From Tribonema minus (Eukaryota; Sar; Xanthophyceae; Tribonematales; Tribonemataceae), in assembly GCA_017506865.1 (NCBI GenBank), contig JAFCMP010000001.1, positions 1,550,001 through 1,614,000 of the forward strand: DNA of 64,000 nt, written 5' to 3'. Position 1 is the first letter of the stretch. Every line of letters starts with the position of its first letter. The notes under the pieces were generated by a model, which saw only the letters and a list, made by a program, of their open reading frames with translations, did no database searches and had not been told where the DNA came from. Of this stretch, positions 1-62,815 are shown one piece after another. The position numbers were made by a program, and so were the translations under genes.

Positions 1-470
1 GGGGGGCACGGACGTTGCAGTCGCCGAGTCCCTCGTCAGTGCCGGCCTCTGCCACAGGCGAGTCCTCGTCCGGTAGGTGTCGTGCCGCGCCTTCGCATTG
101 AGTCTTGTCGCCTTTGGTCGCAGGGGTGTGCTTGAACCTGTTGTCAATGTCATCTGATAGGGGTGGGAAGCGGTGGGGGGGGGGGGGGGGGGGGTAGTCG
201 CCGCATTCCTCGTCAGCGCCGGCCTCTGCCACAGGTCAGTCATTTTCTGTGATTTTGTTCTGTGGCTTTGCTGTGCCTTCTGATTGAAAGTTGTCTGTCA
301 GCGGCAGGCACGGCCCCGGTTTTTGGTCTCACAGGTGTGCGGAAACCTGTTTTCAATGTCTTCTGGGCTGTAGATCTTTAGATTCGATTTTATATAGGTG
401 TGGGAAGAGGGGGGAGGGGGTGGGTGGTTGTCGCCAAGGCCCTGGCCTCTGCCACAGGTCACCCGTTTGC
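1..470 (+). repeat. Triplicated 3' exon edge of SAM synthetase
   Basis: Three degenerate copies of the end of a SAM-synthetase exon, each finishing in ggcctctgccacag, end at 57, 234 and 457. They are followed by gcgagt, gtcagt and gtcacc. The intron parts are repeated too: a gtgtgcttgaacctgtt block near 126 recurs as gtgtgcggaaacctgtt near 332. The period is about 177-223 bp. A run of about 20 G lies at 175-194 immediately before copy 2. Confidence 0.8.
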
Positions 471-2226
471 AGTTGCTCTGCTGTGCGTTCTTTCCGATAG
501 AGTCTTCCGTTTGTGCCGGCTTCTGACGCCGCGCGCTGTTGGTCACAGACTCAGCCAGCCTCGGACTCTGCCGCAGACTGGTGTTTGCGCTCTCGGTGCG
601 CTGACGCGTGTTCCCACGTTCGCCTGCAGCGAGGCGGCTTGCGTGCGTGAGGCACGTGGCACATGACTTGTCTCAAACAGGCTGTTATTTCAGCTGGTCA
701 AACCAAAACTATGCTTCCTTTTTGCGAACTCGAAGGAAGAAATCCGTCGACCAATCAACTGATGCCTACATCCCCCCCTTCCCCCCCCCAACCCATTTAA
801 TTATTGCTCAGGGTGCTGGTCCAGCTGTCGTACGCCATCGGCGTCCCCTACCCGCTCTCCGTGCACGTGGACTCTTACGGCACCGCCATGTCGCGCTCCG
901 GCAAGTCCGACTTTGACCTCGTCAAGATCATCAACGACAACTTTGACCTCAGGTGAGGCCGCCGCTTGGGGCTCGTTGAGCCGTTGATGCAGGTGCTGAT
1001 GCACCTCCTTCCCCGTATAGTACTCAACGTCGGATCTTGCTATTGGTGAAGTTTGTCAAACCTCAGATGTGTCTCTCCTTCGAGTTGCTGCTAGACTGAA
1101 CGGAGCACCGCGACATGGTGCTGTTGTGGCGTTTGCACTTGCAGTTCCTGCACGATGATGCACCACCTTTCAGCGTAGCAGCGTGAGGGATCGTCGGTGA
1201 TGTATACACAGCCCAAGCCGCATGGCACATCTCCACAGCACGCGTGGCGCTGCGCGTCCGTACGAGGCGTTTTCATTTGAGACTGCGCACTAACTTCAAA
1301 CCCTGGGCCAAGTGCATATGTACACCTTCAACTCTGCGCTCCGGGTTACAACTTCGGCTTCACATTGACTCTCTGCCGACTTTGCACGCGCTCAAACTTC
1401 AGCCCTGTGCGGACTTTGCACACGCTGAACTTGATTTCTAAACATTTACACGCAACTTCAATTTTGCCTTTGTTGCCACCGCAGGCCCGGTCGTGCGCCA
1501 CCTCCAGCTGTGAGCTGACTTTGCGCATGCTCAACTTGACCTCCAAAGCGTTCACACGCAACTTTAACTTTGCTGCAACTTCAACTTTGCCGCCGCGCAC
1601 AGGCCCGGCTGCATCGTGCGCGACCTCCAGCTGCGGCGGCCCATCTTCCAGAAGACGGCCGCGTACTGCCACTTTGGCCGCGACGACGCCGACTTCACCT
1701 GGGAGGTGGGTGACGTGCCGCGTGCAACTTCGAACAGTTGGCATGTGGCCGTGGTGTGGCACTTTTGCTGTCATTCGTACTGCTGTGTGTTGCGTGTGTA
1801 GTTCAAGGGTGTCTTTGAAGGGTGTCTGTGGCAGGTACTTGATTGGGGTTGAGTGCGTTGAGATTGCAGCTCTGCGCACTAGCTGGCGCCGCAGACTCAG
1901 CTTCAGAATGATACCTGACAGTCACAAGGGTGATGATTCCACGGCAGATGCGCGTAATCACTTCCTGATGACTCGCTTTCAGTTCATGCCATTGAGTATA
2001 CATTGAAGTATGAAGATTTGCGCGCTTGGTATCAGCAGCAGTGCATCTTGGAACAGATTCCTTTCAGCGGCAGTGGACAGCTAGTTCTTTGTGCTCCGTA
2101 TTGTGGTAGCAGCTCCCTCCTCTGCCTCCGGCACGCGCCACACGAGATCCAGATTCTGACCACATACGTACTTTGCACGTGCCCCCTCGCCGCTTGCTGC
2201 AGGTGCCCAAGGAGCTCAAGTACTAG
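1..2226 (+). CDS. metK/MAT: S-adenosylmethionine synthetase, 3' part (partial gene)
   Basis: Makes S-adenosylmethionine from ATP and methionine; cytosolic/nuclear enzyme. Only the C-terminal part is in the window. Exons read: one ending ...[10 protein letters not shown] (best copy ends at 57; alternative copies end at 234 and 457), then 812-952 ([20 protein letters not shown] onward to FDL), 1603-1705 ([13 protein letters not shown]...[11 protein letters not shown]...TWE) and 2203-2226 (VPKELKY, stop TAG). The order and the motifs YAIG, PLSV, FGRD and the final VPKxLKY are those of the eukaryotic MAT family. Splice phases join cleanly (CAC AG|G GTG, CTC AG|G CCC, GAG|GTG). The donor after the first exon copy is GC (gcgagt), while copy 2 has gtcagt, so which copy is spliced is uncertain. 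Echo copies flank two exons. Confidence 0.92.
1365..1640 (+). repeat. Acceptor-side echo before SAM synthetase exon 1603-1705
   Basis: Degenerate tandem units of about 115 bp. Each contains a gactttgc...gct(g/c)aacttga block and a pyrimidine-rich acgcaactt tract. An acceptor followed by an exon-start copy occurs at 1486 (gcag, then gcccggtcgtgcgccacctc). The true acceptor and exon start are at 1602/1603. The echo copy runs into a stop codon (ctccagctgtga) and cannot replace the real exon. Confidence 0.75.
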
Positions 2227-3814
2227 GCTCCACTCCAACAGGTGCGCCTGCCCGCGTCGTTTGCCGCGCTGCGCGGGCACACAGCGCACCCGGGCAGCCG
2301 CACCGCACCGCACACGATTCCTCTAGAGCGCTGCCGCAGCCGTCCTTCCCAAGGGCCCGCAGCACCCGTGTGCCACATTCCTGCAGGCGGCACCCGTTGT
2401 CGTGGGGGTTAAGGGGGGGGGGTCCTTTGTGTGTGTCACCACATCATTACGTGCCGGAGAGGAGGGAGGGGGGGGGGGGGGGGAGGGGGGAGGAGGCCTT
2501 GTTCGGTGGTTGATTGATTATTGGATGCTGACACGGCCTGGCGCCACAGCGGCGGCGCCCCGTGGGCTGGCGCGCGCTGGCTCGCGCCTGCGACAACACT
2601 TTCACCATCAATAGACGTCTGCCGTCGCACACCCCTGGAGCATGCTGGCCGCGTTGTGCTTCTGCAGCTCGCCAGTGCGTGTTGTGCTATGTTTCACTTC
2701 AAAAGCTGCTCATCGTGGCCCTTGCAAAGCTGGTTTCCCATTGGCCCTTGAGTGTCTGTGCTTGCTTTGCTTGCCATTTGATGCACACAATGAGACCATG
2801 GCACGCGTGTGTCGAACCGCACAGTTCACATCAATGCGTGCATGGTACTACTTGGGAAATGTCATACTAATGTCATACTGAAGTATGTGTGTTCATCAGA
2901 GCGCACTGTGAGAGTCAGTCGGATGGCAGCCATGCACCACCACGGCACTCTGCAGTGCGGACCCCTGGCAGAGCGTGCACACATCAGCGACTGAAGCGCA
3001 TTTCATGCGCATTGCAAAGACTGCCACCTATGGGACTATCACATGCATAATGGGACGATCACATGCAAGCGAGGCGCGCATGACAAGCTCGTCAATATGT
3101 GCGGGAGCGCGCGCTGCCCGTTGCTACTTGCAGCTTCATATATCAAGGCATGCACCGCACATCACTGCAACTAAGCTGGTGGCAGCCGCATTCGAGAAAA
3201 GACTCAGGCGGCATTGGAGAAGCGACTCATTACTTTCATCACATCATGTAACTGTCATGGCGATGCACTAGACCGCAGGACCTTTTCGTCGTGCAGACCT
3301 GCAGCAGCAGCGACGCCCCAATGGCGCGAGGAAACGCAAGGCACAACACACTCGCTGCCGCCGCTCAAAGTATACCTGGAGCACCTGCTCCTGAGTACAT
3401 GCGCGCTTCGAAGCTGCGCGGGGGCCGTTTTACGGTTGGGTGTCTAGTTCAGTACGGCTCGCGCCTCGGGCGTTGCGGGCGCGGCTTGCAAAGCTACCAT
3501 CGCACCACTACACCGACACACACACACACTATCAGGCAAACGAGGCCCTGAAAACGCTGCTGGTGGGGGGCACCAGCAGGGGGTGGGGGTTGGGGGCGGG
3601 GGGGGGGGGGCTGAAGTAGCTCACAACACACCCCAGAGTCATTGCCTTCTTGTTGTCTTGGCCGCAAGAGAATAAGAGAGAAAGCGCCCAGCCGAGCCCG
3701 GTGCGCGCCCCTCCGTCATCCCGAGACGGCCGCATGCGGCCCGCATGGCGGCGCCGCACGGCAGCACGCACACACGTGCGCGCGCCGCCGCTGCCGCCGT
3801 CACCGCCGCGCCGC
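2227..3814. other. Convergent intergenic region
   Basis: Lies between the stop of SAM synthetase (plus) and the stop of the Tudor-like gene (minus), so it should carry both 3' ends. I see no exon with recognisable protein similarity. It contains G-runs at 2468-2483 and 3598-3610 and a short (CA)n stretch near 3518-3530. No polyadenylation signal stands out. Confidence 0.6.
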
Positions 3815-6678
3815 TCACACGATGTACACGAGCGTGCGCCCGTCCTCCTCATGCGCCACCATGACGCGGCTCTGCGAGTCCAGCTCCTTGAGCACCGCGC
3901 GCGCGGTCGCCTCCGTGTATGCGTCGCCGTCGCCGCGTTTCGCGTTGACGGCGTTCACGAGGTTGCCCAGCTCGACGAAGCCATTGCTGTGGTAGCGCAT
4001 CAGCTCCCCCGTGAACGCGTGCATGCAGTCGTCCGTGAAGGCCCTCGGCGCCGCCGCCGCCGCCGCCTCTGCAGCCGCCGCCGCCGCCGCTGCCGCCGCC
4101 GCCGCTGCGCCCGCCGCCGCCCGGTAGTTCGGCTCCGGCGCAGCAGCTGCGGCGGTACTGTGCAGCAGTGCCGCCGCTCCATACTGGAACGCAGCAGCCT
4201 TGGGTTCGGCGGAGGCGGCGGAGCTCCAGGCGTTGAAAGCGGCAGCGGGTCTGGCCCGCGCCGCCGCCGCCGCCGCCGCCGCTGCGGTCCCGGGCCTCTG
4301 CTGCTGCAGCGGAAGCCTGGCCGCGGGTGCGTGCTGCTGCGGCTGCTGCTGCGGCCTGGCGGCAGCGGGCTTGACGCGCTTAGGCGCCGGCGCCCGCGCT
4401 GCACGGCCGCCAGCCTCGGCACGCTTCCCAGCGGCAGCGGCGCGCCGCGGCGCGTTCTCCTTGGCGGCAGCAGCGGCTGCGGCGGCGGCGAGACTGTCGC
4501 TGCGCGCGCCGGGCACGCGTGCGCACTGCGGCGCGGCGGCGGCGCCTGCGCGCAGCGGCGTGCCATCGGCGGCCGCGCAGCACACGTAGCAGAGTTCGAT
4601 GTTCTTGTCGCTGCCGCCGAGGACGTACGTGACGTTCACGGTGCCATCTGAGGGGGGCGGCGCCGAAGGGGGGGGGAGGGGTGTCAGCAAGAGGAGGCAA
4701 GCGTCTATTCTGCGCATGATCAAGTTGCTCAAAATGGCAGTGCTCGTGGGCAGGGTATTCTGTCCGCAGCTGCACCTCAAGTGAAGTGGACAACGTTGGC
4801 TGGGTTGCAGGTAACATATGCATTGTGCCCCCACAGAATCAGCCATAGTTGCACACGTAGCTAAGTTTGAGGGTATCATGCGCAGGCTGCCATACCACCT
4901 GCTGGCGCCTCATGTGTCAGCCTTCCCAGGCAGATCTGTGTGTGTACGTCCATACGTCATGTGTGGACATGCAAGAATTCCAGCATGCTCGTCTGATGTT
5001 ATAATGAGAGGGCGGCCCAGCGCATGCTACACCATGATGCGTGAGCACGCATGTTACGTAGCAGCGGATGCACGGGATCACCAGTGCATACATTGCATAC
5101 AACAGAGGCTACTGATACGCAGTGTGTACTGATGCAAGCCGCTACTGATACTCGGTGATACTCGTTACTGATACTCAGTGATACTCCTACGTACACGCGT
5201 TGCACGTTAGCAAGAGCTGATATGTACGCAGTGTGTACTGATGCGAGCCGCTACTGAAACTCGGTGATACTCCTCATTGATACTCAGTGATACTCCTACG
5301 TACACGCGTTGCACGTCAGCGAGAGCGCAGCAGTTGCTGCAGCGTACCTGTTGATAATGCTTTTTCTGTTCTGTGCAGGAATGAGAGCGGCGATTCACAG
5401 ACAGATGGGCTGCTGCCGGAGGCTGTATCAAGGTACAATAGGTAGGCTAGTGGTACATGTCTGACCTATGTCTGTCTAGGTCTACGGCTGCGCTACTGAT
5501 ACTCGGTGATACTCATACTGATACTCAGTGATAATCCTACGTACACGCGTTGCACGTCAGCAAGAGCTGATATGCAGTGTGTACTGATGCGAGCCGCTGC
5601 TGAAACTCGGTGATACTCCTTACTGATACTCAGTGATACTGCTACGTACGTACACGCGTTGCACGGTAGCAAGAGCGCAGCGGTTGCCGCAGCGTACCTC
5701 TTAATGATGCTTTTTCTGTTCTGTGCAGGAATGAGAGCGGCGGTTTGCAGACACATGGGCTGCTGCCGGAGGCTGCATCAGGGTACAACAGGTAGGCTAG
5801 TCGTGCATGTCTGACCTATGTCTATGTCTACGTCTACGTCTAGTCTACTGTACCACTGCTTCACTGGAATACTTTACAGCGGTACACCAATACATCTCCA
5901 AGCCGCAGCAAGAGTGATGCACGCTAATTTGCTGCAGTAAAAAACGATACACTGCCATGTACGCACACGCCTGCAATACACGGCGTGTGCAATTCTCTCA
6001 GAGTGGTCTGAGCGACCAGGATCACAAATCTGCTTAAAAATCAATCGGTACACCTTGTACCTCTGTTTGAGCATCCTCGAACATGTACACATAGGATTAA
6101 GTGAACTGTACCCAAGCACCATCAGTACAGGTCACAACTTGCAGTATCAGTAGCGTACTGATAGGTTGCGTATCAGGCAGCGGGCCTTGCAGTCACTCAG
6201 TAAGTAGATGTGATTTGGATCCTCTTGCGGCCATGGTGAAAGTGTTTACAAAAGCACTGGAAAGCACATGATGTAATGTATCAATGTCGGTGCGACGTCG
6301 CCATCCGCCTTACATCACGGCAGCGCAGTGGGAGCGTTTCATGAACACCAGCAGAGGTTTGTCTGTGTTCACAGCAATAGGTAGCATCCGCCGACATTTG
6401 CACTGTGCTGACAACGTCTCAGATACAGCAGACCAGCTCTCAAAGTTAACATCTGAAGTTAGTCGTCGCCCACCTTCATTCCACTTCTTGATGCGGCCCA
6501 CGCCTCCCTGCTTGTTGATGCCAGGATAGGTCCTCTCCATGACGCGCACGCTGGGCGTGCACCTGCCGCAGTGGCAATTCCCATCCTGCTTGGCCAGGGC
6601 CAGGGCGTCCTCATGCGACCTAATGGACGCCCAGGACATCTCAGCTGCTGCGGCAGACATGGCCGTCATCAGAGACAT
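3815..6678 (-). CDS. Putative chromatin-associated protein: Cys-rich motif, Tudor-like domain, poly-Ala linker, C-terminal winged-helix-like domain
   Basis: Two exons, 6678-6474 and 4647-3815, join in phase (GAA G|AT GGC) into 345 codons plus stop. Donor gtgggc; acceptor ctcag. About residues 33-40 hold a C-H-C-G-R-C cluster. Then comes a conserved block RTYPGINKQGGVGRIKKW, continued across the splice as DGTVNVTYVLGGSDKNIEL, a pattern I recognise from Tudor-like domains of protist proteins. About 180 residues of Ala/Pro/Gln/Arg low complexity follow, encoded by long GCN runs. The last 75 residues (AFTDDCMHAFTGELMRYHSN to RTLVYIV) resemble the C-terminal winged helix of MCM3-type proteins (xxRVMVAxxxGxxxYIV). 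A nuclear, DNA- or chromatin-binding role is inferred. The start is the first Met of a Met/Ala-rich N-terminus; an upstream exon cannot be excluded. Confidence 0.62.
5110..5835 (+). repeat. Nested tandem repeat containing a duplicated plus-strand exon-like element
   Basis: Inside the intron of the minus-strand Tudor-like gene. About 110-bp units rich in gatactc(a/g)gtgatactc and cctacgtacacgcgttgcac are built into a higher-order unit of about 350 bp present twice. Each higher-order unit ends in a strong plus-strand 3' splice-site sequence (ctttttctgttctgtgcag) followed by a 70-nt open segment, at 5380 and 5730, and a gtaggc donor. The two segments read NESGDSQTDGLLPEAVSRYN and NESGGLQTHGLLPEAASGYN. 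I do not recognise the peptide. Confidence 0.7.
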
Positions 6679-16900: not shown

Positions 16901-19900
16901 TTTGCATACTATCCCAGATCGCCGCGCTCCTTTGGTGTCATGCACAAGGCAATGTTGCGGGCCAGGCACAATGCTGCTGCAATGTTGTCTTCGAGGGTGG
17001 CGCTCCAGTCGTGCTCTGCCTGTTGCTGGTGACGACACTCTCGAGCCTCCAAGATTACAATCCGATCTATTACCGCCGTGCAATGCCAACTCCACCTAGA
17101 ATGCGGCAGCGCGCTGTCAGCACCCCCCAGCCCCCGCCAGCCCCCCCCCCCCCCCCTACCCCCTCTCCGTTTTGCCAATTTCACCTGGAGAATATACACT
17201 TGCAGCACAGCCAGCTTCACCTGAAGAAATGCCGCGATGCGGTCCACGTGCGCCTCCGACACGATGCGGCCGTACAGGTCGCTGGTCTTGGGGTCGGCAC
17301 CGCATACGCGCGGCAGCGCAGCCTTCATCTGCGAGCGACGGCGCAAATTGCAGTCGCAGCGTTTGAGAACGGTGGACGCGTCGGTGAGATCATATCGCCG
17401 CAGCGTTTGAGAGCTACAACCCTGCTGTCGCGCACGATCACTGGGCCTTGCGTCATGGCGCATTCGCTTCAATGCCGCACGCCTCGCCGCGGCGATGGCG
17501 CACACGACGCACGGGACCGTTCGTGATGGCTAAAGCATTGTAGCCCCAACCTTAACCTTCACTCTGTCCCTAACCTTACCCCTCACCCTAACCCTATGAC
17601 TGAGGCGCATGAGACGCCACGCACAGGCTGCGGCGCCACATGAACAGCACTGCATCGGCATCCGGGTGCCTACTGTCAGGCAGAGTGACAGCAGCCGGCG
17701 TCATGCAAGGAAGCGGACGAGATGACGTCTTGCGGTCGCCGCCTCGGATGGTGGCACGCCGACCAGAAGCGGGCTAGGAGCAGTCAGGTTGCACGGAGGT
17801 GTTGAGAGACGCACCGGGGGGGGGGGGGGGGGGGCACTTGCACCACACCAGTTTGCTTTGCCCAGAACTTCAAGCTTGGCATCTGTTAGGCTGGCTGAGC
17901 AAGGACGCGCGTAGGGTGAGCGACCACTCTGTTGAATGGTCGAGAAGCGACGGAGCGCAGGGCGCGCGGCTAACGTGCAGTCGCAGCAAACACTGTGAAG
18001 TGCTTCTGACGCGAAAGGACCGTCGCCGCCAACAATCAATGAATACCACTGGCAGTAGATCTACATGACTAGAGTTGGCGTACCGCTGACTGCTGTGAAG
18101 CTGTCATCGCACTTCAAGCGGTGACGTCCCTGCAGCCAATGTGAACGTCAACCCTCCTCACTCCCATATTGCACAAGCAACGGCCAGCTCAACACCTCAT
18201 GCGCCATTACACAGCGGTTGCAGAACCGCGTGGCTCAGCAGCACGATGTTGGCCGCAGTGCTCCACAATGCACCGTGCGCATCAACGCTCGACATCAGGC
18301 ATGCTTGAAGACCTGGAAATGAGCAAAGCTGTGTGCCTCAATGGCACTTCTGACGTCAACAGCACGTTTGATGTGAATTGGGGCGTGCGTACAACCGATG
18401 GCCAGCGCACACACACCATACACCGCTTGCACTAGCAGTGAGCGCTGTGCGCCTACAGTACTTTGGAAGTGGTGAGGGCGTGTGCGACTAGTTATCAATG
18501 TGCGTGTCACCTCTTGAACCAGCAGCGGCATGACCTCGCGGTCCGCCAGCACGTAGTCGGCCGCGATGCAGAACTGGCCGCAGTTTGCGAAGCGCCCGCG
18601 CAGTGTGCGCTCCGCGGCGATCGGCATGTCCGCGGACTTGTGTACGTACACGGGGCACTTGCCTGCGCAGGGGTTGTGGGGAAAAGGGGTAGGTAGGATT
18701 AGGGTTAGGATTAGGGTGAGGGTTGTGCCTAGCGACAGAACCAGAGGTGCGGTCAGACTTAGGGTGAGGGTGACGCTTTGGTTCAGGGCCAAGTATGGCT
18801 CTACCTCAGCGCTCACCCTACTAGGGCATCAGACATCATGTAGAATTACAGTGCCCTGACGAAAAATGTTTTGTCGTGATCACACTTGAGATTAGCATGG
18901 CGCACGTACGGACTGTGCGCGCACGCGCGTGCGCCTGCGCATCCTGCCTGGCAGATGACGGCAGCGGCGCGCGCCCATGGCTCACGTTTATTCGTCAAGG
19001 GCTGATGGGTACTTATGCCGCTGAAGTACCCTTTGAGTACAGAGTAATGCCCACCTAATTCAGCTTCTCCGTTCAGTGCACACAGTATTTGCAAGGCATG
19101 CGCAATGACGGTGCGGTGTGACCCACTTCAGGGGGACTAGTGTAGTGCGCTCGCAAGCAGTCTGCACGCGCGTCTGCGGCCTGTCTCCACCAGACAGCTG
19201 GCCAAAGCCGATAGCGCATCACATCAGATACAAATGAGGGCTGGTCGTGCCGCAACCCTTACCCTGCACCCAAGCGAACTGAAACCCAGTCCCAAACCCT
19301 AGGCGTGCATGCGACACCTACTGACACTCGCCTCCTAGCTCGAGCAGCGTGGGTGTGAGGTGCCTAATACATGTCTGCGCCAGACAGCTGGCCCAATCTG
19401 CACCGCCAAACTGTAGTAGGCAATGACACTGGTACTTGCCTCCGAGTTCCAGCAGCGTAGGGGTGAGGTGCCTGGCAGCGGCGGCAGCTACAACGCGCCC
19501 AACCTTGGTCCCGCCCGTGTAGCAGATCTTGTCGAAGCGCTGCTCCAGCAGCGCCGTCGTCTCTGCGCACACATGAGCGCACAGTGTCGCCGTGGTCAGT
19601 ACGCTCCAATATCTCAGTACTTCTTTCAAGCACATCACTACATGTAAAAGTATGTCAGACGAATGCACGCGACCGTTTGCTTTCAGAGGCAAAACTGCAG
19701 TCGGCGCTCAGTGTTCAGCCCTCTGCACTACTTCAACTTGGCAGTTGCGGACGTCGCTCCGGCCTGCCAATGACGCTAGGCGTGATGCAATACGAAGAGT
19801 GTGTTGCGCGTCCATCAGGTCCAGCCATCACCTCGGCGCGCTGCGGAAGCTGCTCATGAGCATGGAAGAAGCTGCAGCGCCACGCGCCCTGCAATCGCAC

Positions 19901-46292: not shown

Positions 46293-49200
46293 ATGGGCAA
46301 GAAGCGCAAAGGCCGCTCTGCTGCAGCGTCCTTCACTAACGCTGAACTTGAACAAGCTTCAGCTGCCGCTGATGCACCTCGCGCCACGAAGAAGCGGAAT
46401 CGCGAAGAAGGCAAACCTGTTCGGTTCACCCATCCAGCGCTGGCTGGCAGAGATCAGACCTGGTTGTCGCCTGAGGATGATCTATTTGGAGCTGCGTTGG
46501 AGACCAGCTATCGAGGTTTCAGACTGGAGCCCGCAGCCAGCTTGGGCAAGGACATCCACACGGCTTACAGAGGTAAACTGCACGGGAATTCCCGCTTTCA
46601 TGGCGAAATGCCCATCAAATGCGGAGAAAGCCTGGCGCCCATCAGGGTCTGAATTACCCTCATTTTAAGGTCTATCATTTTCTGTGCAGCTGCAGCGCAG
46701 AAGTTTGGCTCATCGTTGTTAGTTAGTGTTGTGTAACTGGTGCGGTCGTCGTCTTCACCGAAATCAGAATTTCCTGTTGCAGTAACGTTGGCGTGCCGCC
46801 ATGCACAGCCTTGTCCGCGGTCAGCGCTGGCGCACTCCTTGAGCGTTTCATTCAATGCTTGAAGTCCTGCATCTCTAGTCATCGCAGCACCAACACGCCG
46901 TAATAGGACATGCATGCGAGCAGACTACATGTGTCCAAAGCTGTGTCTGGCAGCAAGACGAGCAGCACTACAACTGAATTGCGGCTTCAGCAGATTCTTC
47001 AATATGTGCCCGCTGCGCGCGCTCGCCACTTACGTCTTAAGATTTGCACCCGATGCTTGATGGTGTCAATTAAACACGGAACAAATGTGTTTCTGCAGCT
47101 GGCTTTTAGACTCCACCAGAGCAATGCAACTCAACTGCACTGAGCTGCGCCGCATGCCCTCCGCGCCCCGCCCGCGCCCCCGCCGCTCTCGCAGAGGCGT
47201 TCAGCAAAGTGCACGAAGCGGGGCTCTTCCTGTACGACATTGTGCAGGCGGGAGGGAAGCGCCTCAGTTCCACTTTTGTGACGCGCACGCTCGTGGGCGA
47301 GGCCGGCATCACGTACAAGTACCTCGGACTGCGCATCTTCGCGCACCCGTGGTGCGGCGGCGGGCAGGTGAGGCGCGGCGGCGGCGGCGCCGATGCTCGC
47401 CGCCATACACCAGGCTTCATGATACGTGTCGTGTGATGCTCGGTCACGGAGTTTGTAACACGGAGTTTGTAATAAACTGTAGGGCCCGGCCTCCGCCACG
47501 TCCTGGTGAGGCGCGGGCGAGGCGCATGCGCTGCTGGTGGTTTTGCTAATAGCTGCTGCGCACATAATTACGGGCATCATCGTGTGAGGTCTGGGTCACA
47601 TGGAGTGCAGCTCTGACGGTACTTCAGGCAACGGCGGTCGTCAGGCCAGATGTTCAGGAATGCAGCAGCGAGGCGCCCAGGGCACGCGCTCGCGGTGTCG
47701 CGCGTCGCTTTCGAGGTGTGATGCGCACGCTCGCAGTGCGCACCACATTGCGGTGTCATGCCAGGGCACCCCCTGCGAGCTGCCACAAAAGACCTCCCCC
47801 CAATGGCTGCTTCTACGGCCACCTGGGCCAGCGGTGAAGCTGCGCTTCCACAGTGCGTTTGATGTTCGTTGCGCTGTGCGTGTCAGTGTGTGCTCGTAGT
47901 ACGGCAATTCGGTGCCACCACTCACGCCGTAAAACGGCCTTCAGGGGCCGACCGCGTAAATGCACGCCCCGGCAGCAAGCGCGCTGACTGTGTGCGTGCT
48001 TCCGCTGTCGTGTGCGCGTCTCCTGATGCATGCTGCAGGGCTGCACATTTGCACAAGGGCCCTCAGACTGGGCGCCGCCCGGTGAACAGGCGGATGTAGG
48101 GCAGCAGCAGCAGCAGCAGCAGCATCAGAGGAAGAAGAAACACAAGGGGGAATCGGGCGCAGCGGCGGCGGCGGCGGTGGTGGCGGCAGCAGAGGATGCG
48201 GCGGTGACTGAGCTCTGGGGCCAGGGAGAGGTGGAGTCACTGGGTCCGAAGGTGAGCTCCCACGACTTTGAATGCACCTGTATGTCACACTTTGAAGTAA
48301 AACAACTGAGCAGGGAATAAAGTACGCCAGAGTGGTAAATGTTGACTCACACAAACCAGCACCAGGATATTTACACATCATGAGTGGATTTCCACATCAA
48401 GTTGCAGCAAAATTGTCCCCAGGAGCTAAGAAGCTTACATGCTGAATAGCTTTGCGCCCTAGTCGAACCAATCGACTGTTCATGTCCGCGTGTGTTTCTC
48501 AAGCAAATGGCTCCATGACCGAATGTGCACATTGGGGTTCATTGTGCCCTCATTGACGCTTGATTATGGCTTGAGATAATCCCTTCTATTCATTGATTAT
48601 TATCAGCAGAAAATTAAACGCTTGTGCGCCTATGTGTCAGCAACAATGGCTGGTACCGGCAGGCCGCCAGGCCCCTTGTGTCGACCTTGAAAGCAAGAAG
48701 CTTGCAATTGATTGGCGTTGATCGTGGTATGTTGCACCACTATGGAGCCAGCAATACACTTGACGCCAAATAATCATGAGCATGTAATTGTGGACAGCGA
48801 TAATACCTGGAGCCTTGTGGCACTTGAATACTTCAAAGTATAAATAGGTGGGAGCGTACGGGGGACAAAACTGAGCTCTGCTCGCGCAATGGTCTCATTC
48901 AATCATGCATCCAAACTTCAACTTGAGCTTGCAGGTGGTGACAGCGCTGCGACAGCTGTGCACGCTGAACGCGTGGCTGCGGCGGCGGGCAGAGCGCGCG
49001 TGCGCGGAAGAGGGCATCACCGCGCGGCTCGCTGCTGCGGGGCACTCCCCCGGCAGCTTCGACTTCAACCTGACTCTCATCAACAGGTACGCATACCGCC
49101 AGATTTGACTTCAACCTCACTATCGCCAACAGGTTTGCATATCGGCAGTTTCTGCTGCAACCAAGCGCTCATCAAGGTATGCGTGCGGGCAGCACGACTC

Positions 49201-52200
49201 CATCGGCACTTTTGATAACAGGTACTTGGAAGCAATTGTCACACCGGCGGTTGCATCATCGAACAACTCTCATTAGCAGGCATGTACGTACGCTGCAAAT
49301 GATGACGGCAGTTATGAACTCAATGTATCCTGCATCAACGGGTGGTGTATGTCGGCAGGAATGACTGCAAGTGATCTCAGCAACAGGTCTGTATGCTGCA
49401 AAGGGTGCTCACCCGACAGCGTTGCAATGACGGGTTGCAGCTGATGGCGGGTTCTTCAAGTTGAAGTTTCAGCGGAGACTGGCGCCGGTTTTTTCATGTG
49501 CACGTTGCAGCGGAGGCTGGCAGATGAGATGAGGCATGCTGGGGTCGCGCCGCTCTGCGCAGCTGCATAGTCCCATGGACAGCCATGCTTTTGGTGAGAC
49601 GAGGTTTGAACAACCCAATTCAGGTGCCTCGAAAGGATTGAGCGACATCCCCAGGCTAGGGTGCTAGGGTGTATTGCTGTGCATGCGCAACATCGCAACT
49701 TGCCAATATCTTGCTTGCGTGCAGGATGGAGCCCTGTGGGCGCTGCGAGCGGCACAACAATGCTTTCTTCTTGTGGCAGTTGCACCGTGGACTGCAAAGA
49801 GTACAATCAGTGTGACGTCAGCAGTTGAAGTACCAGAAATCCACGACACCACTGCAATCACGAAGTTAGGTGCTCGTTTGCACCACATACATCTTGGATT
49901 ATTTGCACGTGCATCCATCCTGAGATCATTTGCACGTGTTCCTCCAATGCACGCAGGATGGAGCCCAGCGGGCATGGCGACGGCTACCACGCCAAACTCA
50001 AGCCCGAGCCCATATTCGGCATGGGGAAGGTGCGCGCTTGCGCTGCAGCTTCTTGCTTTTCACATCTGCAGATTGCTGTCATCATCAAGGGACCCTCAAA
50101 TCGTGAATCCTGACCAAGGTCTGGCGTGTGTGTTCACGCTCATGATGTACGTCCATCAGCAACAGAAGTGGTCAAAAATCTACACTGGAAACCAAACATT
50201 TCTACAGCCCAGGCCAAGGTACTGGAGAAGTTTTTTGTTGTCTCAGACGTGGGCGAGCATATTCAACATTATTTCCTGTGATCCCCGCACCTTTACATTG
50301 CTACTTCGATGGGGGAGGCGCGCGCACCCACGTTGCATTTTTTTGTGCATCACATGCGCAGAGTGTTCGATTGGCCACGCAACTGAGCAATCTCTGGTGT
50401 TTGCACGGTACTCTTGTTTCACAGAGTGTGTGGCAATATTCACCTCCGGAAGCACTTGGTGTTATGTGGTGTGACGTCCGCAGCTTCACACTGCTACTGA
50501 AGCGAGACCGCGAACTCAGGCCTCGCTGAAGATGATGCTGCGAGGTTTTGTTGTTTGTGCTATCAGCAGTGCACCGGTTTGGCCAGACAGTGCTGCCCCC
50601 CCCCCTTTCTGTGCCCCGTCGCTGGACGCTGCCTTCATGCTCCATGATTGCGAGGAGAGCTGCTGGAAGCTTTTACATCTCGGCTGCTCTGCCCCCCCAC
50701 ATTAGCATAACCTGACAGGGGTTGGCTTAGGTTTTCAAAGGACAATCAGGATTGGCGTCGGTTCAAGGAAGCTTAGGATCTCAATGTCGCCATACCTCAT
50801 TTGTGACCATGTTTTCTTGCCGCGCTGCATCCCGCAGGCGAGCGTCAGCTGGCATGCGGACAGCTGCTTGGAGGACTACAGGTGAACAAGCACCCATATG
50901 CCATCTACCTGCTTGACCAAATGAGCTCTCTGTGTCAGCCAGACCTTGGAAGCAGGAGTGGCGATGGTTGTGTGCTGAAGCCTGCCGTGTCACATGCTCA
51001 GCAATAGCGTACGACGACGGCAGGGGCGGTGGCGGCGGCGGCGGCGTCGTAGGCTACCTGCTGCGTCACGCTGCGCCCGCTGCTCATTTCTAGATGCAGC
51101 GATACGCTGCGCCCGCTGCTCATTTCTAGATGCAGCGATAATGGGAGCATGGTGCTGTGTGCCGCCAAGCGCTGCGGGGTTGCCCAGTCTGTGTAGCGCC
51201 ACGGTGGTGCATATCTGAGCGGATATACTTCAATGCACAAGTACTTTGGGAGCATTGTTGGTGCTCTGCACACTGCTCTCCACACCCACGTGATCCGCAT
51301 TTGCGACGCAAACCTGCAAAATACGTACCCCCCCCACCCTTCCCCCCCTATGCTGTTCATGCTGTCGCAGCACCATCGGCGTCTACCACGTCACCACGCC
51401 TCCAGTCACAACTTCAATGACAACTTCAAAAAACCGCAGCAGCAGCAGCGGCGGCGGCGGCGGCGCCGACTGGAAGGTCGCCGTCCGCTGCAGCGCTGAG
51501 CAACTGCCAGCATCCAGCGGCAGTGACGGCTCGACAGCTAGCCCTAAGCCTAGGGTTACTGCAAAGCCACCTAAGGCTGTGGCTAGCGCCAAGGCAGAGG
51601 GAGAGGAGGTGGTGACGCCGCCGCTTGTGGTGCCGCTGCGCTCAGGCGACGCGTACTTCATGCTGGACGACTTCAACCACTACCACGAGCACCTGGTGCT
51701 CGCCGGCGAGGTAAGTCAGTATGCAAATTGAAGTAGAGGATGCAAATTGAAGTATAGTATGTGATGCTGGACGACTTTAACCACTTCCACGAGCACCTGG
51801 TGCTCGCCGGCGAGGTTAGTTTGTATAGAAGTACGTGAGCTTGTATACAAGTTATGATAGAGCACTTGATGCTGGATGGCTTTAACTCATTGTATGCGCA
51901 TCTGGCGCTGGCAGGCGAGTCAAGTACTGTAGGTGTACGTATGTATCAATATCTGATGCTGGGTGACCTCAGGCACTTCCACGAGCACCTGGTGCTGGCC
52001 GGCGAGGTCAGTCCGTGTGCACTTTTCGGTAGAAGCAGAGTTTTACCTCGTGCTGGACGACTTCAGCCACGTCCAGGAGCTCCTGGCACTCGCTGGCGAG
52101 GTAGCTAGGTGTATGTGCAAATCACATATCAGATGCTGGATGACCTCAAGCACTTCTGCGAGCACCTGGTGCTGGCCAGCAGGCAACAAGCACAATGTAG

Positions 52201-55200
52201 CTGTACTCCCGCTTCAATAATTTTTTGGAGCAGGTGTGCTCGCTGTCGTGGCAATTGGGTGTGCTTCATGTGCGTTTTGGTGGACGACATCACCCAGTTC
52301 CACGAGCCCTGGTGCTGGACGGCTAGGTGATCAAGTGCATTAGGATTAGGTGTAGCTAATTAGGGTTAGGTTTAGCTAACCCCAACCCATGCCGGCGCGA
52401 GTGCGCTGCAATTCTCCTGGCGTGCTCTGGGAAGTGGTTCGTAAATGTGGAGGGGTGCTGCTCTACTTTCTGTGCTTGGCATCGTCCATGAATGAAATCC
52501 TATTGCGCACGTCGTGCCCTCTTGTCAGCAATTTGACGCCTTCTTGTAACTGAGGCTCTTCTGCTATGAAGATCGCCTGCATGAAGCTTGTGCTCTTGAA
52601 CTGAGACCCCACTGCATTGGAGCTGCTCTGCATTTCAGAAATGGAAGAACTCCGCAGGTTCGATTGTGAAGTGTTTGCATGATTTGACTCAGTGTCAACC
52701 TGTACATTTAAACAGACGACGATTTCCAGGGCGTCACTCTGTGATTTGTTCGCACTCGATGCGTAGCAAGCGTTTTCCTACAATCATCTGGCGATTTATG
52801 GCAAGTTGGCGTTTTCTTCAAGATGTTACTTGTGCTCACAAGCAGGCTGAGTTTGCAACTCTGTATGTAAACACGTTGGATTTCACAAATCACTGCTTTC
52901 TTTGTGTACGTCCGATACCCCCGTCTCTCCAGCCTTGCCGGCTCCTTCTCAACGCACAGACGCACCACGCCTTCATTGCACCATCACTCAACATGTTGCG
53001 CACAGGTTTGGTTGCATGTCCAAAAACTGCCAGCTCTTCATGTGTGATTCAGGCCTCAAAAGACTCAGAAATACATGGTTGTGCAAACCATTTTGATGCT
53101 GGGCACCGTCTCTGTGACCTGTAAGCACCAACAGTGCTGCATGGCAGGACACCCTGCCTCCCCCCTTGACAGCTCCCACTAACTCATTCCAGCTGCAAGG
53201 CCGCCTCCGCATCCCTTTCCTGACCTAACCTCAACCCCAACTTTTACCTCTTACCCCATTCCTAACCTGACCAAAACCCTAACATGAGGTTTGGTATGTA
53301 ACCCCCATGTATGTATGTAACCCCCAATCCTAACGTAATCGAAACCCTGACCATTGAGGTTTTGCATGCGTTGATCGCTGCTGCCGCGACGCAGGACACC
53401 CTGCGGTACTCCAGCACGCACCGCGTCAGCGTGCGTGAGGGGAACACTTGGGCGCAGATCTCGGGTCGCTGCAGAGAGGTGGGTGCCTGCAATCATTGTA
53501 GCCCAGTTATGGGTCAAGTAGGGTTAGGGCTAGCGTTAAAGTAGAATTTGGGTTACAGTTAGGGTGAGGCTTACGATGTGGGCGCAGATCTCGGGGCGCT
53601 GCAGAGAGGTGCGTGCCCGCAATCGTTGTAGCCCAGTCATGGGTCAGGTAGGGTTAGAATTGACATCAAACGAGAATTATTAGGAATTGGGTGTGCGTGA
53701 GGGTCAGGGTTGCGCCTGGACGCCAGCAATCGTGGGCGCAGATCTTGGGGTGCTGCAGAGAGGTGCATGCCCGCAGCTGTAGCAGAGGGTCAGGTTAGGT
53801 GGGATGAGGATTGGCATTTAGACTACGCGGGCTCAACAATCGGGGGCGCTGCGGAGAGGCGGTGTGCCTGCACCTGCACCCGTAGCAGGCGCTCTGGCTG
53901 GGCGGGGTCAAGTCAGGTTTAGGGCAACAGCTAGGCTGGTGGTGGGGCTCAAATAAAGGTTAGGTTAGGGTCGAAGTTATGGACGGAGGTGCCTCTTACT
54001 GTATGTACAAAAACTGCTGTGAACAACACATGAAGGTAGGAATGGGCAACACACACATTCTTCTGTAGTACTGCACCTCAGTGTGCGCCTCATATTGTGC
54101 CGCCCTGCACACATGATCGCCAATGGCCAACAACCACGCCAGCAATTCCGGGAATGCAGTAACGTAACTCAGCGTTGTGAGCGCCTCAACCCTAACCCCA
54201 ACACTAGGCAGCCGGCCTGAGCGCTGACAGCATGTACAAGGCAAAATGGCATGCTTGAAACGCTCGCATCGACATCATCACGCTTCAGAATATCGCGGCG
54301 CAAAAGCTGGCGGTTTCGACAGAAACGGAGGCAGGCAAGCGCGCCTCGGGAGGGCGTCGCAGAGAGTCGTGTGCGCCATGCCTCCCGAAGCGGTTGTTTT
54401 GTGATGCGCCAGCGCATCACTACAGAAGCGACCTGTCAACGAGGTAACAGCGCTCAGTGCCACGGGCTTCACGCTCCTGCCTCTTCCTCACAGCCGCCCT
54501 TGCGCTTCGCTCGTTGCACGCGCCGCACGCAGGTGCTGAGCGTCTCTGCCCCGACGGCGCCGGCGCTGCCGCTCGCGCAGCTGCGCGCGGAGCAGGCGCT
54601 GCAGACGGAACTGGAGGGCGAGTGGCTGTACCAGTTCTGGGCGCAGGGCCGGCGGCACGCGCGCCTGCACCCCTGGTGAGCATCCGACCTCGGAGTCGTA
54701 GCAGGTTTCAAGTTGTATTTCAAGCGCCTGCAGCTTCCATGTGGTTTATACTGTGGTGCGCAAGCGGGTGCTCGCGTCATCTTGTTCTAGGACACTCACA
54801 ACACACCACTCAAGCTCCCATGTATGCTCGTTGCGCGAGCGGGCGCTCGCGTCATCACGTGCTAGAACACTGACGACGCGCCGCTCGAGCGGAGGGGCGT
54901 CGCTGTCGATCTCTTCACTGCACGCGGAATGACGACCGTCCAGCGCCTGCACGCTGCTCACCACCGTAGACTCACAAACAGCATTACACCATCGTTCAGC
55001 TGCTTCGGGTTGCAACGCGCGCTTTGAAGCGCCAGCGGCAGCGCGCAGTGCCGCGCAAAAAAATGGATGGCGCCGCAGCAGTGCTCTGTGTGCTCCCGCT
55101 CAACCGCCGCCCCTTGCGTGCATGCGCGTCTCAGATGAAGGCGGCCCATGGTTAGGATGGGGCTGTCCTTCAAGTGCTTAAACTTCATCGCATCGTGCGC

Positions 55201-57662: not shown

Positions 57663-58180
57663 ACATTTCACAGCAAGCATACAGTATGCAGTATGCGATA
57701 AGTCATCAAGTATGTCAGCGTGTGCTATCTGCATCGGTGTGGTGACTGCGTGTGCGGCCAACAATGTAAGCTGGTGTGAATAAGCTGCTGTCAAGGACAA
57801 CCTGCTGCAAATGAGATGCGTTTTTTGACTTGTGTATCACAGTGTGCCTGCATGCCATTGAAGACTTAACGCATTGCATCTTGGGGATATTTCTGACCCC
57901 CAAGATTGCACTTGACGGTGAATCTACAAGTGCTGGAATGTCACACCAAAAGACAGATGGTTTCACAGCAAATCAAGGTCTGACGCGACAATTGCCAGCC
58001 CCGCTTCAGTAGTTGAGTAAAGTGGCCCAGGTACAGCACCTTGCCGGCCTTGCCTGTCAGTCATCACTGCGTCAATGATGTGGGTGGTGTGGGACCCAGA
58101 ACGATGTTCAACTTCAACTGGCGAGTCCTGTCGCTTGAACTTCACTGGATTGCGTTGACCTTGACGCTCATTTTGACGCG
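57663..58180. other. Intergenic region between FTO and the F-box-like gene
   Basis: 518 bp between two genes on the same strand. No exon recognised. It should contain the FTO 3' end and the promoter of the next gene. No clear TATA box; aacttcaactgg and gaacttcac occur shortly before the ATG. Confidence 0.5.
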
Positions 58181-61100
58181 ATGAACCAGCTAGACGAAGC
58201 TGATGCCGCTGCCGCCTCTGGCGGAGACAGCGGCGGCGCTGTGATGAGAGGCCGACGCACCGCAAACAAGCCTGCAGTCAAGAAGCGAGCCCCTAAGCGC
58301 AAGAAAGATACCAGCAGCAGCAGCCCGGCAGTCGTCTACCATGCCACCCCCGGGCAGATGCCGCCTTCGGTCGTGCCGAACATGTTGGACCTCCTAAGTG
58401 TGATGGATTTGTGTGGTCTGGGGCGTGTCAGCAGGTAAGCAGAGCAGCAATGCCGTCATTTCAGGTCTGTCAATCAGAGACCAGATCCTGACCCTCGGAT
58501 TAGTTTGCCTGATCACGACACATCATGTGCCGTCCACATTCAAAGAGGAAAAGGTGATTGGCGATGCGGTGTTGAAGCTGGCATGTTCGCGCTGCAGCAC
58601 AACTCATTGTGGGCCGCGCTTGCCGCGCTAGTCTGATGTCCGCTCCCCTCAAAATCGCTCAGAATTGATCTGAGTCGCCCATGCTGATTGCAGCATGCCC
58701 CATGTCTGCTGCAGCATGTTGGGCTTGACCTGGTCACAAGACGCTGGGATGATCGACTTTTGCCAAGTCCCCCAGCGTCAACTTTCAAATCTTGCTCACA
58801 ACAATCTATCGAAGGCAAGGCACTGTTCACGCCCCAGTACAGTCAGTTCGAGTTCGTCGCCACGTGTATAGGCAAGCCTTGTGCTCGCAGCCATTGTGCA
58901 AATTTCCATGCGTGGGGATAGATCTTTCTCTTCCCTGGCTGCAGCCATTTCTGTGCCTTATTTGGCAACACAGCTTTCGGCACTACTACGTTCACCGATT
59001 TCGTGCTGTGCTCCCAGCACACGGCGCCCACGGGCGCTGCGAACGCCAGCACGCGCGCCAAGCGACGACCCTATCTGACGCCCGACTGCCGCCGCACATC
59101 ATCATACACTCACCGTCACACACCCCACGCCATAACTGCCGGCCCTCCGCGCCAGGGCCTGGCGCACGGAGAGCCAGCGCGAGTGCCACTATGCGCGCCG
59201 CGCGACGCCCGCCGCGCTCGACCCCTACGCCTTCTACGCACAAGACGAAGAGACGGGCGAGCGCACGGAGGAAGTCCCCTTCACAGAGCTCGGGGAGGCG
59301 CGGCTGGCGGGGCTGATTGAGGCGTGCGGAGCTTGGAGGGTGGTGGTGGCGCTGGCGTCGCGGCGCTGCGTGGGGTGCGGCGCGCGGACGGGGTGGTTCA
59401 GCTACTGCGCGTGCGCGCGCACGTGCGCCGCGTGCTTCCGCGCGCCCGCGGCGAAGCTGGGCAGCTTGAGCTACGCCAAGGTGCGTGCGCGTGTGGTGTG
59501 CGCATGCGCGCGCGGCAGCGACGTGGGTACCTATGTAATGAGGTTTTTGCGCTGCGTCGCGTGCGGCGTGCGCACGGGGTGGATCAGCTACTGCGCGTGT
59601 GCGCGCACGTGCGCCGCGTGCTTCCGCGCGCCCACGGCCAAGCTGTGCAGCGTGAGCTACACCAAGGTGAGTTGGGTTCGTGTGCGCATGCGCGCGCAGC
59701 GGCATGAGGGTAGGTATGTCATGAGGTATTTGGCGCTGCGTCGGGTGTGCCGTGTGCTTCCGCCGCCCCGCGGCGAAGCTGTGCAGCGTGAGCTACGCCA
59801 AGGTGCGCGCGCGTGTGTGGTCGTGTGGTGCGCAGCAAGAGCGCCACGCAAAGGCATGTGCCTATGCGTGGCGTCAGGAGGCGACGTGGCAACTGACGGT
59901 TTTCGTCGCACGGACGAAGTCGTGCCAAGGTGTGGGCTCGTCACTAGGCTCCATCCACATTCAGATACCGTTTAAACCACATTCAGCGAGCCATCATGTT
60001 GTGAGTGATGAGCTTCGTTGAGAGCAATCCCTAATCGCAACACTGGTTATGACATATGCTGTTTGTGCTGTTTCTGGGGTTTGGGCACAGTGCATGTTGC
60101 TGACTCCCCACTCCATCCCCCCATCTGCACCAACAACCGCTCCGTGTAACTGATACCGCCCATCTTGCCCAGATGCCTGCGAGCACTTTGCGAACGCAGC
60201 CATCCTCACCACTTGCGCTCTTGCCGTAACACACGCTATACATGCGCAGGCGCACTTCCTGCTCAGCGCCAGCCAGGAGGCGGAGCTCGTGACGCTCGTC
60301 GTGCCGGAGGCCGCGGAGTCCGGCTGCGTGGCGAACCGCAAGGCGTCGCTGCCCATCACGCACCTGGGGCGCGCGCGCGACAGTGCCATCAGGCGCTTCG
60401 GCTCCGAGGAGGTGACTGCCATGTTGTTCAAGTGAACTGGCAACTACAGTTGCAATTGTGGTCCCGAGGGCATCATGCACCTCTCGCGCGCCAGCGCCAT
60501 CGATCGATTCGGTTCTGAGGAGGTGACTCTGGTGTGTTGAAATTGCCAATTGTTGTGTTGAAATTGATCCGAGCATACTGTGTGCCTACGACATACATCC
60601 GTTGGATAGCATAGTACGGCGACTCTTGAACACGTGTCGTAGATGGCTGCATTGCGCAGCACGCTGCATGTTGGAAGGACAAAGTAAGTGCGCTGGCTTT
60701 GCATCAGGCGCTTCGGCTCCGAGGATGTGACTTCTATGTTGGTCAAGTTGACTTACAATTGCAGTTGCAGTAATGGTCCAGAGGGCATTAGGCACCCCGC
60801 GCGCGCCATCGCCATCAAGCGCTTCAGCTCCAAGGATGTGACTTCTATAGAGTTGGATTTGTGTCCTAGAAGTCAATTTAATCCAGAACGGAAAACTTTT
60901 GTGTTCAGTCTGCAGCGATGAGGGGGAATATACTGAAGTATGCGATTGGTCGGAGTGTACTGTTCACGCCTGAAGTGCGTCCGTTTTCCCTGAAGTGCGT
61001 CCGCTGCATCGTCTGCCCACGCGAAGGTTGCTTCACTGCTGAGCGCTGCTGCCGTGTCCGCCGCACCGGTGCCCTCTCCTGCAGGCGTTCGACGCGGAGA

Positions 61101-62517
61101 TGACGAGGCGCAGGTCCAAGGCGCAGGACGGTCACGACGCGCGCTACAGGGCTGCGCAGGTGGCGACGACGGAAGCGCGTGCCAGGGGCGACGCCTCGGC
61201 AGTCATCAAGTCCCCTTCGTCGCCGCGCATTCTGGGTGAGCATCGCTACGTCCTGCACAGACATTTGGCCCCCTTCATCCTTTGAAATCGGTGGTTTTCT
61301 GGGGGCTTGGGTGGGGCAGTTCCGCAGCCAGGGCAGTGTGAGCAAGTACCTCGCGAGTGCGCTGGTGCCTCACACCCGCCAGCTCTCCACCAGACCCCCC
61401 CTGGGCACTTGGCCGACACTGACTTGGGGCCACGGTTCCCGGACTCCTTCAGAGTTGCAATTGTTGCTCGGCACCCCTGCGGGGCACTCTGGAGCACCGC
61501 AGATGCCCCCACTAGTAACGCAAACGGCGGACGGTCGATGGCGTGCCCGATGTGCCCATCTTGCGCAGGCAGGACGCGCAGTGAATCTGGAGCTCGAGAA
61601 AAGGTCCCTGAAATGCCGGTCATGTAACTGACAAAATGACAGTCAGTTGAGAAATGTGGCTGTTTTTTTTAGTGGCAGCGCTCATCAAGGGTTTCCGCGC
61701 TCGGCCGCCCGAGATGCCCGGACAGCAGACCGCCCGCCTTATACTTCTAAAGGCGATGTTGCATCACGGTTCAGCCGCGGGCGGCAAATGATGTGCCTGT
61801 GTCAGCTCAATAGACTCACACCTTCCATCGTGCACGTACAGTGCGCTGCTGACTGACTGATCGCATGCACATGCACGCGTACACCGCAACCGACGCACGC
61901 TCAAGCAGTCCAGAAGGAACGCGATATGAGAACCCCCCTCCCCCGCGCCGTCCCGCTGCATCAAACTCACCACATCGCTGCAAGATGCCTAGCTCCTTCG
62001 TTTGTTGCGCGCTGCTAGCGCTGCCTCTATGACATCCCATCCGCTGCCTGCTCACGTCTCGGTTTGCGACAAAGTTTGCTGAGCACTGCGGCTCCACATG
62101 TGGCCCCCTCCCTGCTGTTCAGCTCCATGTGCGCGCTCAAGCAGTCCACCAGACGACGCAATATGCGAACCCCTCCCCCCCGCAGTCTCGCGGCATCGCG
62201 CACTCACCACCCCCCGGCGCGTGCCGCGCGCCTCGTGCCGCTGCCTACCTACACACCCCGCAGGCCTGGCCAACGAGACCAACTACGTCGGCGCCAACCA
62301 GGCGAGCGGCCACGTGTACGGCGCCAAGTACGGCCACGTCTTCGTCTCCGACGACGCCGACGAGGTGCGCGAGCGGCTCAGCGAGCTGCCGCCGCGGCTC
62401 AGCCAGTCCGCCGCCGTGCCGCCCGCGCTGCGCCCCGCCGCGTACTACCTGGACATGCAGCCGCTGCACGTGCTCGGCGTACTATTCGGCATTGAGATCG
62501 TCCAGGGGGACTACTGA
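58181..62517 (+). CDS. F-box-like protein with Cys-rich (zinc-knuckle) motif
   Basis: Five exons: 58181-58434, 59156-59480, 60250-60411, 61085-61235 and 62264-62517. They total 1146 nt, 381 residues, all junctions in phase. The N-terminus is low complexity and basic. About residues 66-88 (MLDLLSVMDLCGLGRVSR|AWR across the first splice) resemble an F-box helix pattern (LxxLsxxDLxxLxrVSRaWR). A Cys-rich knuckle follows at 156-178: CVGCGARTGWFSYCACARTC, then AACF (CxxC, CxC, CxxC). Then a segment (SYAKAHFLLSASQEAELVTL...) whose order of zinc knuckle and helix loosely recalls XPA-like zinc modules found in some F-box proteins. An RxxRSKAQD basic helix and a C-terminal segment ending GVLFGIEIVQGDY close the protein. 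Inferred role: substrate adaptor of an SCF ubiquitin ligase. The family assignment is tentative; the gene model is firmer than the function. Confidence 0.62.
59365..59940 (+). repeat. Donor-side echo array after F-box-gene exon 2
   Basis: The real donor is at 59481 (gtgcgt). Copies end with donors at 59667 (gtgagt), 59803 (gtgcgc) and a remnant at 59930 (gtgtgg). Copy 1 keeps the whole Cys-rich knuckle in frame (LRCVACGVRTGWISYCACAR, then TCAACF). Copy 2 keeps only the last part (VCRVLPPP frame-shifted; gcgtgagctacgccaag identical). Confidence 0.92.
60375..60850 (+). repeat. Donor-side echo array after F-box-gene exon 3
   Basis: The exon edge encoding SAIRRFGSEE with donor gtgact (60412) is copied three times, with donors at 60523, 60727 and 60838, all gtgact. 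Spacings are 111, 204 and 111 bp. The shared intron part includes aattgca/gttgcagt and a gagggcat(c/t)a block before each copy. Confidence 0.92.
61885..62205 (+). repeat. Two-copy repeat in F-box-gene intron 4
   Basis: A block of about 60 bp recurs at about 61893 and 62135: (c)gctcaagcagtcca, then acg(c/a)(g/a)atatg and gaacccc-C-rich. The interval is about 242 bp. A matching copy of the exon 5 start is not obvious. Confidence 0.65.
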
Positions 62518-62815
62518 GCGCTGCCGCCGCGGCTCAGCCAGTCCGCCGCCGTGCCGCCCGCGCTGCGCCCCGCCGCGCACTACCTGGACGCGCCGCCGCT
62601 GCACGTCCTCGGCATACTGTTCGGCATGGAGATCGTCCACGGGGACTATTGAGCGCTGATGATTCCTCCGGGGGGGGGGGGGGGGGGGGGGGCACGTAGC
62701 CATGCTCAGTGGCACGGGCGGTCCCTAGGTGCGCCGCCCCCCCCCGCACGTCATGATCCTCGGCTTGCTTTTTGGCATGGGCCATGTGCGCAGCAGCCTG
62801 AAGTTCCGGTGTGAC
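62385..62815 (+). repeat. Stop-codon echo array past the F-box-like gene
   Basis: The last 135 nt of the coding sequence, including the stop (LPPRLSQSAAVPPALRPAA to GDY*), is copied almost intact at about 62521-62652. The copy has its own in-frame TGA and reads LHVLGILFGMEIVHGDY. A third, eroded copy near 62741-62790 (cacgtcatgatcctcggctt) follows a run of about 23 G (62670-62692). Confidence 0.93.

Follow-up and report, generated by a model that had tools for sequence, protein, structure and literature searches.

Arrays at exon edges in the window

The stretch considered here, 64,000 nucleotides of Tribonema minus (Xanthophyceae) at positions 1550001-1614000 of contig JAFCMP010000001.1 (C1 below; the whole stretch is referred to as the window), belongs to a genome of 158.18 Mb in 554 contigs, the genes of which are characterised by long introns. 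It carries sequence of a SAM synthetase gene, two divergently transcribed ALDH3 genes, an FTO gene and one further gene, and at exon edges of these genes there are tandem arrays whose repeat unit straddles the exon border. The surplus copies are called echoes in what follows; each of the units studied has been copied from an exon edge of the gene in which it lies. The identities of SAM synthetase and of both ALDH3 genes are backed by homology, and a codon-bias search of the window flanks for further genes returned SAM synthetase only. FTO is backed by Pfam, with two exon pieces above the cut-off, one below it (E = 0.021) and two having no match. The four pieces of the gene that the initial annotation had described as F-box-like gave zero Pfam matches below E = 0.2, so that this label is not retained.

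The initial annotation counted about 18 echoed edges in five genes. Six edges in or at the window are firmly protein-backed (two in SAM synthetase, three in ALDH3 and one in FTO), and to these may be added two probable FTO donors and three edges in the gene lacking a Pfam match; the full number was not reproduced. The arrays concerned are as follows.

1..484, plus strand: echoes on the donor side of intron 4 in SAM synthetase; the array begins at -141, with the copy joined to the exon outside the window on its left and the donor at C1:1549897
1397..1633, plus strand: acceptor echo of SAM synthetase intron 5; exon start at 1603, echo copy at 1397-1510
19320..19473, minus strand: donor echo of exon C in the minus-strand ALDH3 copy; GC donor at 19439
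31653..32228, plus strand: acceptor array of exon A in the plus-strand ALDH3 copy; exon start at 32175, three exon-anchored echo matches upstream
34563..34996, plus strand: donor array of exon D in the plus-strand ALDH3 copy; donor at 34606, period of about 130
51654..52328, plus strand: FTO donor array; exon end at 51710 and donor at 51711, followed by six echo matches of the last exon bases
49050..49152, plus strand: probable FTO donor at 49087 and a 46-base echo; the match of the exon to FTO is weak (E = 0.021)
53449..53817, plus strand: probable FTO donor at 53479 and two echo matches; the exon piece has no Pfam match of its own
59363..59817, plus strand: array at a presumed donor near 59481, in the gene left without a Pfam match at E < 0.2
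60354..60848, plus strand: array in the same gene (no Pfam match below E = 0.2), likewise at a presumed donor
62385..62658, plus strand: stop-side echo of the same gene, two 135-base copies with an in-frame stop at the end of each

Local tandem duplication in the genome

The background of local duplication was measured in 274 kb of contiguous sequence (the window together with L001 and L002-L021), in which repeat pairs lying within 1.5 kb of each other were collected. At 40 bits or more there were 436 direct and 43 inverted pairs, and at 60 bits or more 239 direct and 2 inverted ones; one shuffled copy gave 0 at either threshold. At 40 bits, 18% of all bases sit in a local direct-repeat copy, and repeat clusters occur about once per 2 kb; Tandem Repeats Finder covers 76,182 bp/Mbp of the same sequence. 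The identity between copies is continuous, running from about 70 to 96% (5th-95th percentile), and their spacing from 74 to 823 bases on the same percentiles. Tandem duplication is therefore pervasive and long-lasting in this genome, as follows from the density of the direct repeats and the continuum of their identities, and the echoes at exon borders are mostly one face of this wider habit. The window itself contains arrays at which no recognised exon border is crossed:

5112..5850, strand not assigned: array touching no recognised exon, an instance of the wider duplication process
21836..22298, minus strand: array 5' of exon A in the minus-strand ALDH3 copy; it does not reach across the start of that exon (21807), a counter-example to the border pattern
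40241..41110, strand not assigned: very young array of three 290-base copies at 99.8% identity, with no recognised exon attached

Further arrays touching no recognised exon lie at 28334-28444 and 31257-31477. The array at 40241-41110 is the youngest seen, and its copy number may differ among strains or may be a matter of assembly. An array stands just upstream of ALDH3 exon A in both paralogues, not crossing the border at 21836-22298 and crossing it at 31653-32228, which may reflect either chance or a shared hot spot. Interstitial telomere-like TTAGGG/CCCTAA runs are present in or beside the ALDH3 genes at 17544-17596, 22414-22473, 22689-22797 and 31006-31121.

Elsewhere in the genome, 4 of the 56 exon matches found in a search for the chaperonin family repeat part of an exon edge a second time (two on C51 and one each on C5 and C135), and a protein-level search with SAM synthetase gave one such partial copy, at C1:1544004. 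No protein-level echo was found by eye among 80 HSP70 and 14 Aldedh matches; at the DNA level one HSP70 border (L034) is crossed by a repeat. At L025:180-840 (C51) two echoes precede a chaperonin exon start, and much of the protein edge can still be read in them.

Some of the paralogues encountered in these searches deserve a separate mention. The HSP70 genes L032 and L033 (C522, on opposite strands) agree at 99.6% in intron 5 and at 98% over 122 bases of intron 4, while their introns 1 to 3 show matches of 75-85%, except for one exact 16-base match; judged from the alignments, the 3' part appears to have undergone gene conversion. The HSP70 genes at C179:221650-223642 and C90:846742-848762 have identical matches in their first exons (67 bits, positions 1-103) and somewhat different second exons, as would be expected either of a recent duplication or of a haplotype copy. 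Near-equal Aldedh exon matches on opposite strands lie 36 kb apart at C521:151125-151286 and 187317-187478.

Placement and decay of the echoes

For the placement tests, successive profile matches were joined in frame at GT-AG or GC-AG sites to set the borders, and a border was counted as crossed when a repeat copy of at least 35 bits extended over 10 bases on each side of it. The main set comprises 64 introns with 128 borders (31 introns from chaperonin, 15 from ALDH3 and 18 from HSP70 genes). Dropped from it were the four chaperonin echo matches, which were set aside before exon joining, 11 of 42 chaperonin junctions with too large a profile gap and 1 of 16 ALDH3 junctions with a poor score; L025, with its two protein-level echoes, contributed no junction, and one junction in L027 was hand-picked from the second-best candidate. 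SAM synthetase, having been chosen by the initial annotation, was left out of the main counts, and both ALDH3 genes, which have the same source, are inside them with 2 of 30 borders crossed.

The initial annotation spoke of a genome-wide habit of duplicating exon borders and proposed, as a check, a comparison of border crossing with crossing at other points. In this comparison 15 of the 128 borders were crossed against 15.5% of 7731 intron points, which does not bear the habit out. The first 46 introns gave 14 crossed borders out of 92, the mean of 600 random draws of intron points being 13.65; when SAM synthetase is added, 18/138 borders and 15.2% of intron points are crossed, and a border is straddled by 18 of 35 arrays. 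All the crossings are absent from L024, L026, L032 and L033, the introns of which are repeat-free (0/26 borders), and also from L023, L027 and L030, the introns of which do hold arrays (0/26 borders).

The raw crossing rate weights intron arrays by their copy number, and hence neutral simulations and a test counting arrays were added. The simulations place duplications at random, remove the events that break an exon and include a doubled detectable lifetime of a frozen copy; a first version over-covered the introns (coverage 56%, border/intron ratio 0.30, one-sided ratio 0.73-0.82) and was recalibrated. With each array counted once, 15 of the 32 arrays touching introns straddle a border (47%, confidence interval 29-65%), and the simulated fractions are 40, 50, 41, 42 and 46%. 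The simulated values are already this high because the units are not much shorter than the introns. No border-targeted mechanism is needed to account for these data, although a weaker preference for borders stays compatible with them.

The decay was followed at 13 borders with 23 echoes, after 9 of the 32 alignments running across a border had been dropped because their letters at the border could not be resolved. In 23/23 of the resolved pairs divergence is lower on the exon side, and the ratio of exon-side to intron-side corrected divergence is 0.46 (0.38-0.55), the neutral expectation being 0.5. A two-fold difference of this kind is what a frozen exon copy and free drift of the rest would produce. 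The observation of the initial annotation that echoes often keep GT or AG holds true, as the splice dinucleotide is retained in 19 of the 23, yet this is only the neutral rate: 18.9 are expected from exon-side identity (14.8 from intron-side identity, a measure that counts change in both copies), so that in these 23 echoes the dinucleotide is not conserved beyond its surroundings.

Codon positions were compared in a larger set anchored on the exons (25 of 95 borders, matches down to 27 bits), for which five borders had been added as pre-named or as having an echo already seen, namely SAM synthetase, three FTO donors and ALDH3 exon A. Mismatches between exon and echo number 80/74/135 at codon positions 1, 2 and 3 (about 1010 sites each), a ratio of 1.76; the value of about 1.7 expected for a neutral echo with synonymous drift of the exon is our own estimate and not a computed one. 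Columns variable between echoes number 51/44/65 (about 211 each, p = 0.12). The surplus copies thus fit neutral drift in their divergence ratio, their dinucleotide retention and their echo-to-echo codon positions, and selection on the echoes, or a coding use of them, is not supported.

Origin of the echoes and known systems

The echoes are best explained by random small tandem duplications filtered by selection at the protein level, a reading to which we assign a probability of roughly 0.78. Small tandem duplications, probably made by staggered-break fill-in or by replication slippage, would arise throughout the genome largely blind to splice sites. Those inside exons would be purged by selection, while duplications that fall within introns, into intergenic DNA or over a single exon border would be tolerated, the last because splicing is still possible at the outermost, exon-attached copy, which is presumably the one spliced. 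The surplus copy would then drift as ordinary intron DNA with the exon half of the functional copy frozen, and it is this combination that would give the arrays their look of echoes decaying from an intact edge; the time for which an array can be recognised should also be about doubled when it crosses a border, compared with one confined to an intron. The rule put forward by the initial annotation, that donor echoes lie downstream and acceptor echoes upstream, is true, but by construction, since a copy placed on the other side, within the exon, would disrupt the protein by inserted DNA. Of the three origins that had been offered, a neutral slippage ratchet, a selected splicing device and an enzyme working on sequence that resembles splice sites, the first comes close to this result and the second runs against the data.

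Several results weigh against this reading, most of them as signs of an excess at borders. L022 and L029 together hold 9 of the 15 crossed borders. The copy-weighted ratio of border to intron crossing is 0.76 (0.45-1.12) against 0.29-0.41 in the simulations, and that of borders to points 80-250 bases into the intron is 0.78 (0.49-1.09) against 0.49-0.55. Repeat coverage along introns is U-shaped, with an edge/middle ratio of 1.96 (1.22-5.4) where 0.58-0.78 was simulated; by absolute distance it shows no fall-off within the first 200 intron bases. In the exon-anchored one-sided test 18/92 borders were hit against 81/1080 intron points, a ratio of 2.6 (bootstrap 1.5-4.3; simulated 0.86-1.93). 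Over the simulations, the excess at borders is roughly 1.4-2.6x by the copy-weighted measures and 2.5-3.4x by the U-shape measure, and the simulations themselves contain neither transposon insertions nor array turnover. A point of another kind is an early count of codon positions at 11 borders, 15/9/36, which resembled coding constraint on the echoes, a signal that was not upheld in the larger exon-anchored set.

These points would be accommodated if duplication were itself biased toward exon borders and about twice as likely there as elsewhere in genes, a true excess that could be put only very roughly. The starters might be transcription-coupled breaks, R-loops at transcribed exon-intron junctions, or forks stalled at the step in composition between exon and intron. 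Beside the copy-weighted, one-sided and U-shape statistics, a published survey speaks for such a bias, as tandem repeats are denser near intron ends in 31/31 species, foremost in two green algae (PMC3887541; this and the other sources cited below are drawn on in part only). The array counts, on the other hand, are without excess (15/32 against 40-50%), and a test confined to the neutral intron side of the outermost copy found 3/92 borders against 47/1720 points, a ratio of 1.2 (0-3.75) that demonstrates no excess but comes from few matches and has low power. We consider the bias unlikely. Because a simulation that already includes the frozen-copy effect leaves an excess unexplained, our confidence in it is slightly raised and that in random duplication with protein-level selection slightly lowered. 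A border-specific system is not shown, and a modest preference for intron ends may exist. If the bias were true, intron growth would take place at the ends, and this would also account for the increase of repeats toward intron ends reported for green algae; should the residual excess be real, lengthening of introns from the ends can be tested directly in this genome.

It is very improbable that the echoes represent a selected splicing device, a ladder of decoy or alternative splice sites. The retained GT or AG dinucleotides and the long open frames kept in some echoes of the chaperonin genes on C51, C5 and C135 may suggest it, but the retention matches that of the neighbouring exon-derived letters, codon positions 1 and 2 show no significant deficit of variation between echoes, and the divergence ratio of exon and intron sides is consistent with neutrality. 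The gain of introns by tandem duplication is the least probable origin of all: the needed process, frequent tandem duplication, is present and a potato duplication is known to span an intron-exon boundary (PMC4974935), but a repeat joining donor and acceptor in register was found in 0/69 introns, and between exons A and H the same seven intron positions occur in both ALDH3 paralogues, which yet differ in their border-crossing arrays. Since the introns are common to the paralogues and the arrays are not, the latter look, on sequence comparison, younger than the introns and would be later additions that lengthened old ones.

Two consequences of random duplication under protein-level selection may be of wider use. 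When the surviving duplications are not much shorter than the introns, about 2 in 5 of them can be expected to span a splice site through chance alone, and selection then mimics direction. Moreover, each border-crossing array would consist of a frozen half and a free half and thus could serve as a built-in clock, timing neutral change and dating the duplication.

Duplicated (mutually exclusive) exons are copies of coding sequence beside an exon. The present arrays differ from them in that 15/15 straddling arrays cross one border only and that the echoes as a group are without coding constraint. Introners, mobile elements that make introns, would be recognised by the sequence of a single element in introns of many genes, a point on which the origin of the present units from the exon edge of their own gene bears indirectly. 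An exon-edge echo pattern under this or a similar name was not found in the literature searched. Intron gain through tandem duplication, as treated for Drosophila (PMC2891723) and with the boundary-spanning potato duplication of Ma et al. (PMC4974935), is alike, in the parts of these papers drawn on here, in the duplicated splice-site sequence; in our case existing introns are lengthened, no new intron was found and the terminal-repeat signature is missing from all 69 introns. End joining at staggered breaks yields small tandem duplications (PMC8355091, in part) and is a plausible source here; a point of difference is that in 21 of the 30 pairs of at least 93% identity the copies do not abut but have a spacer between them, although one short-period satellite makes up 13 of the 30.

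Among algal genomes, conspicuously long introns are reported from Chlamydomonas relatives in the portion of PMC8226300 considered, and the Haematococcus genome is treated in PMC6330051. Zhao et al. (2014; PMC3887541), in the part drawn on, give a very high tandem-repeat density for C. reinhardtii, 42,059 bp/Mbp, and a rise of repeats toward intron ends in 31 plant and algal species that is strongest in two green algae and possibly related to splicing according to the authors. A simpler cause of that rise might be that arrays crossing a border remain detectable for longer, although our own simulation gave no U-shape. The two cases are alike in their high repeat density in introns; over the 274 kb examined here, 76,182 bp/Mbp are covered, under different settings. 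They differ in the repeats themselves, which as described in that source are short di-, tri- and hexanucleotide motifs, whereas the units in Tribonema mostly measure tens to hundreds of bases, are diverged and in some cases contain coding sequence.

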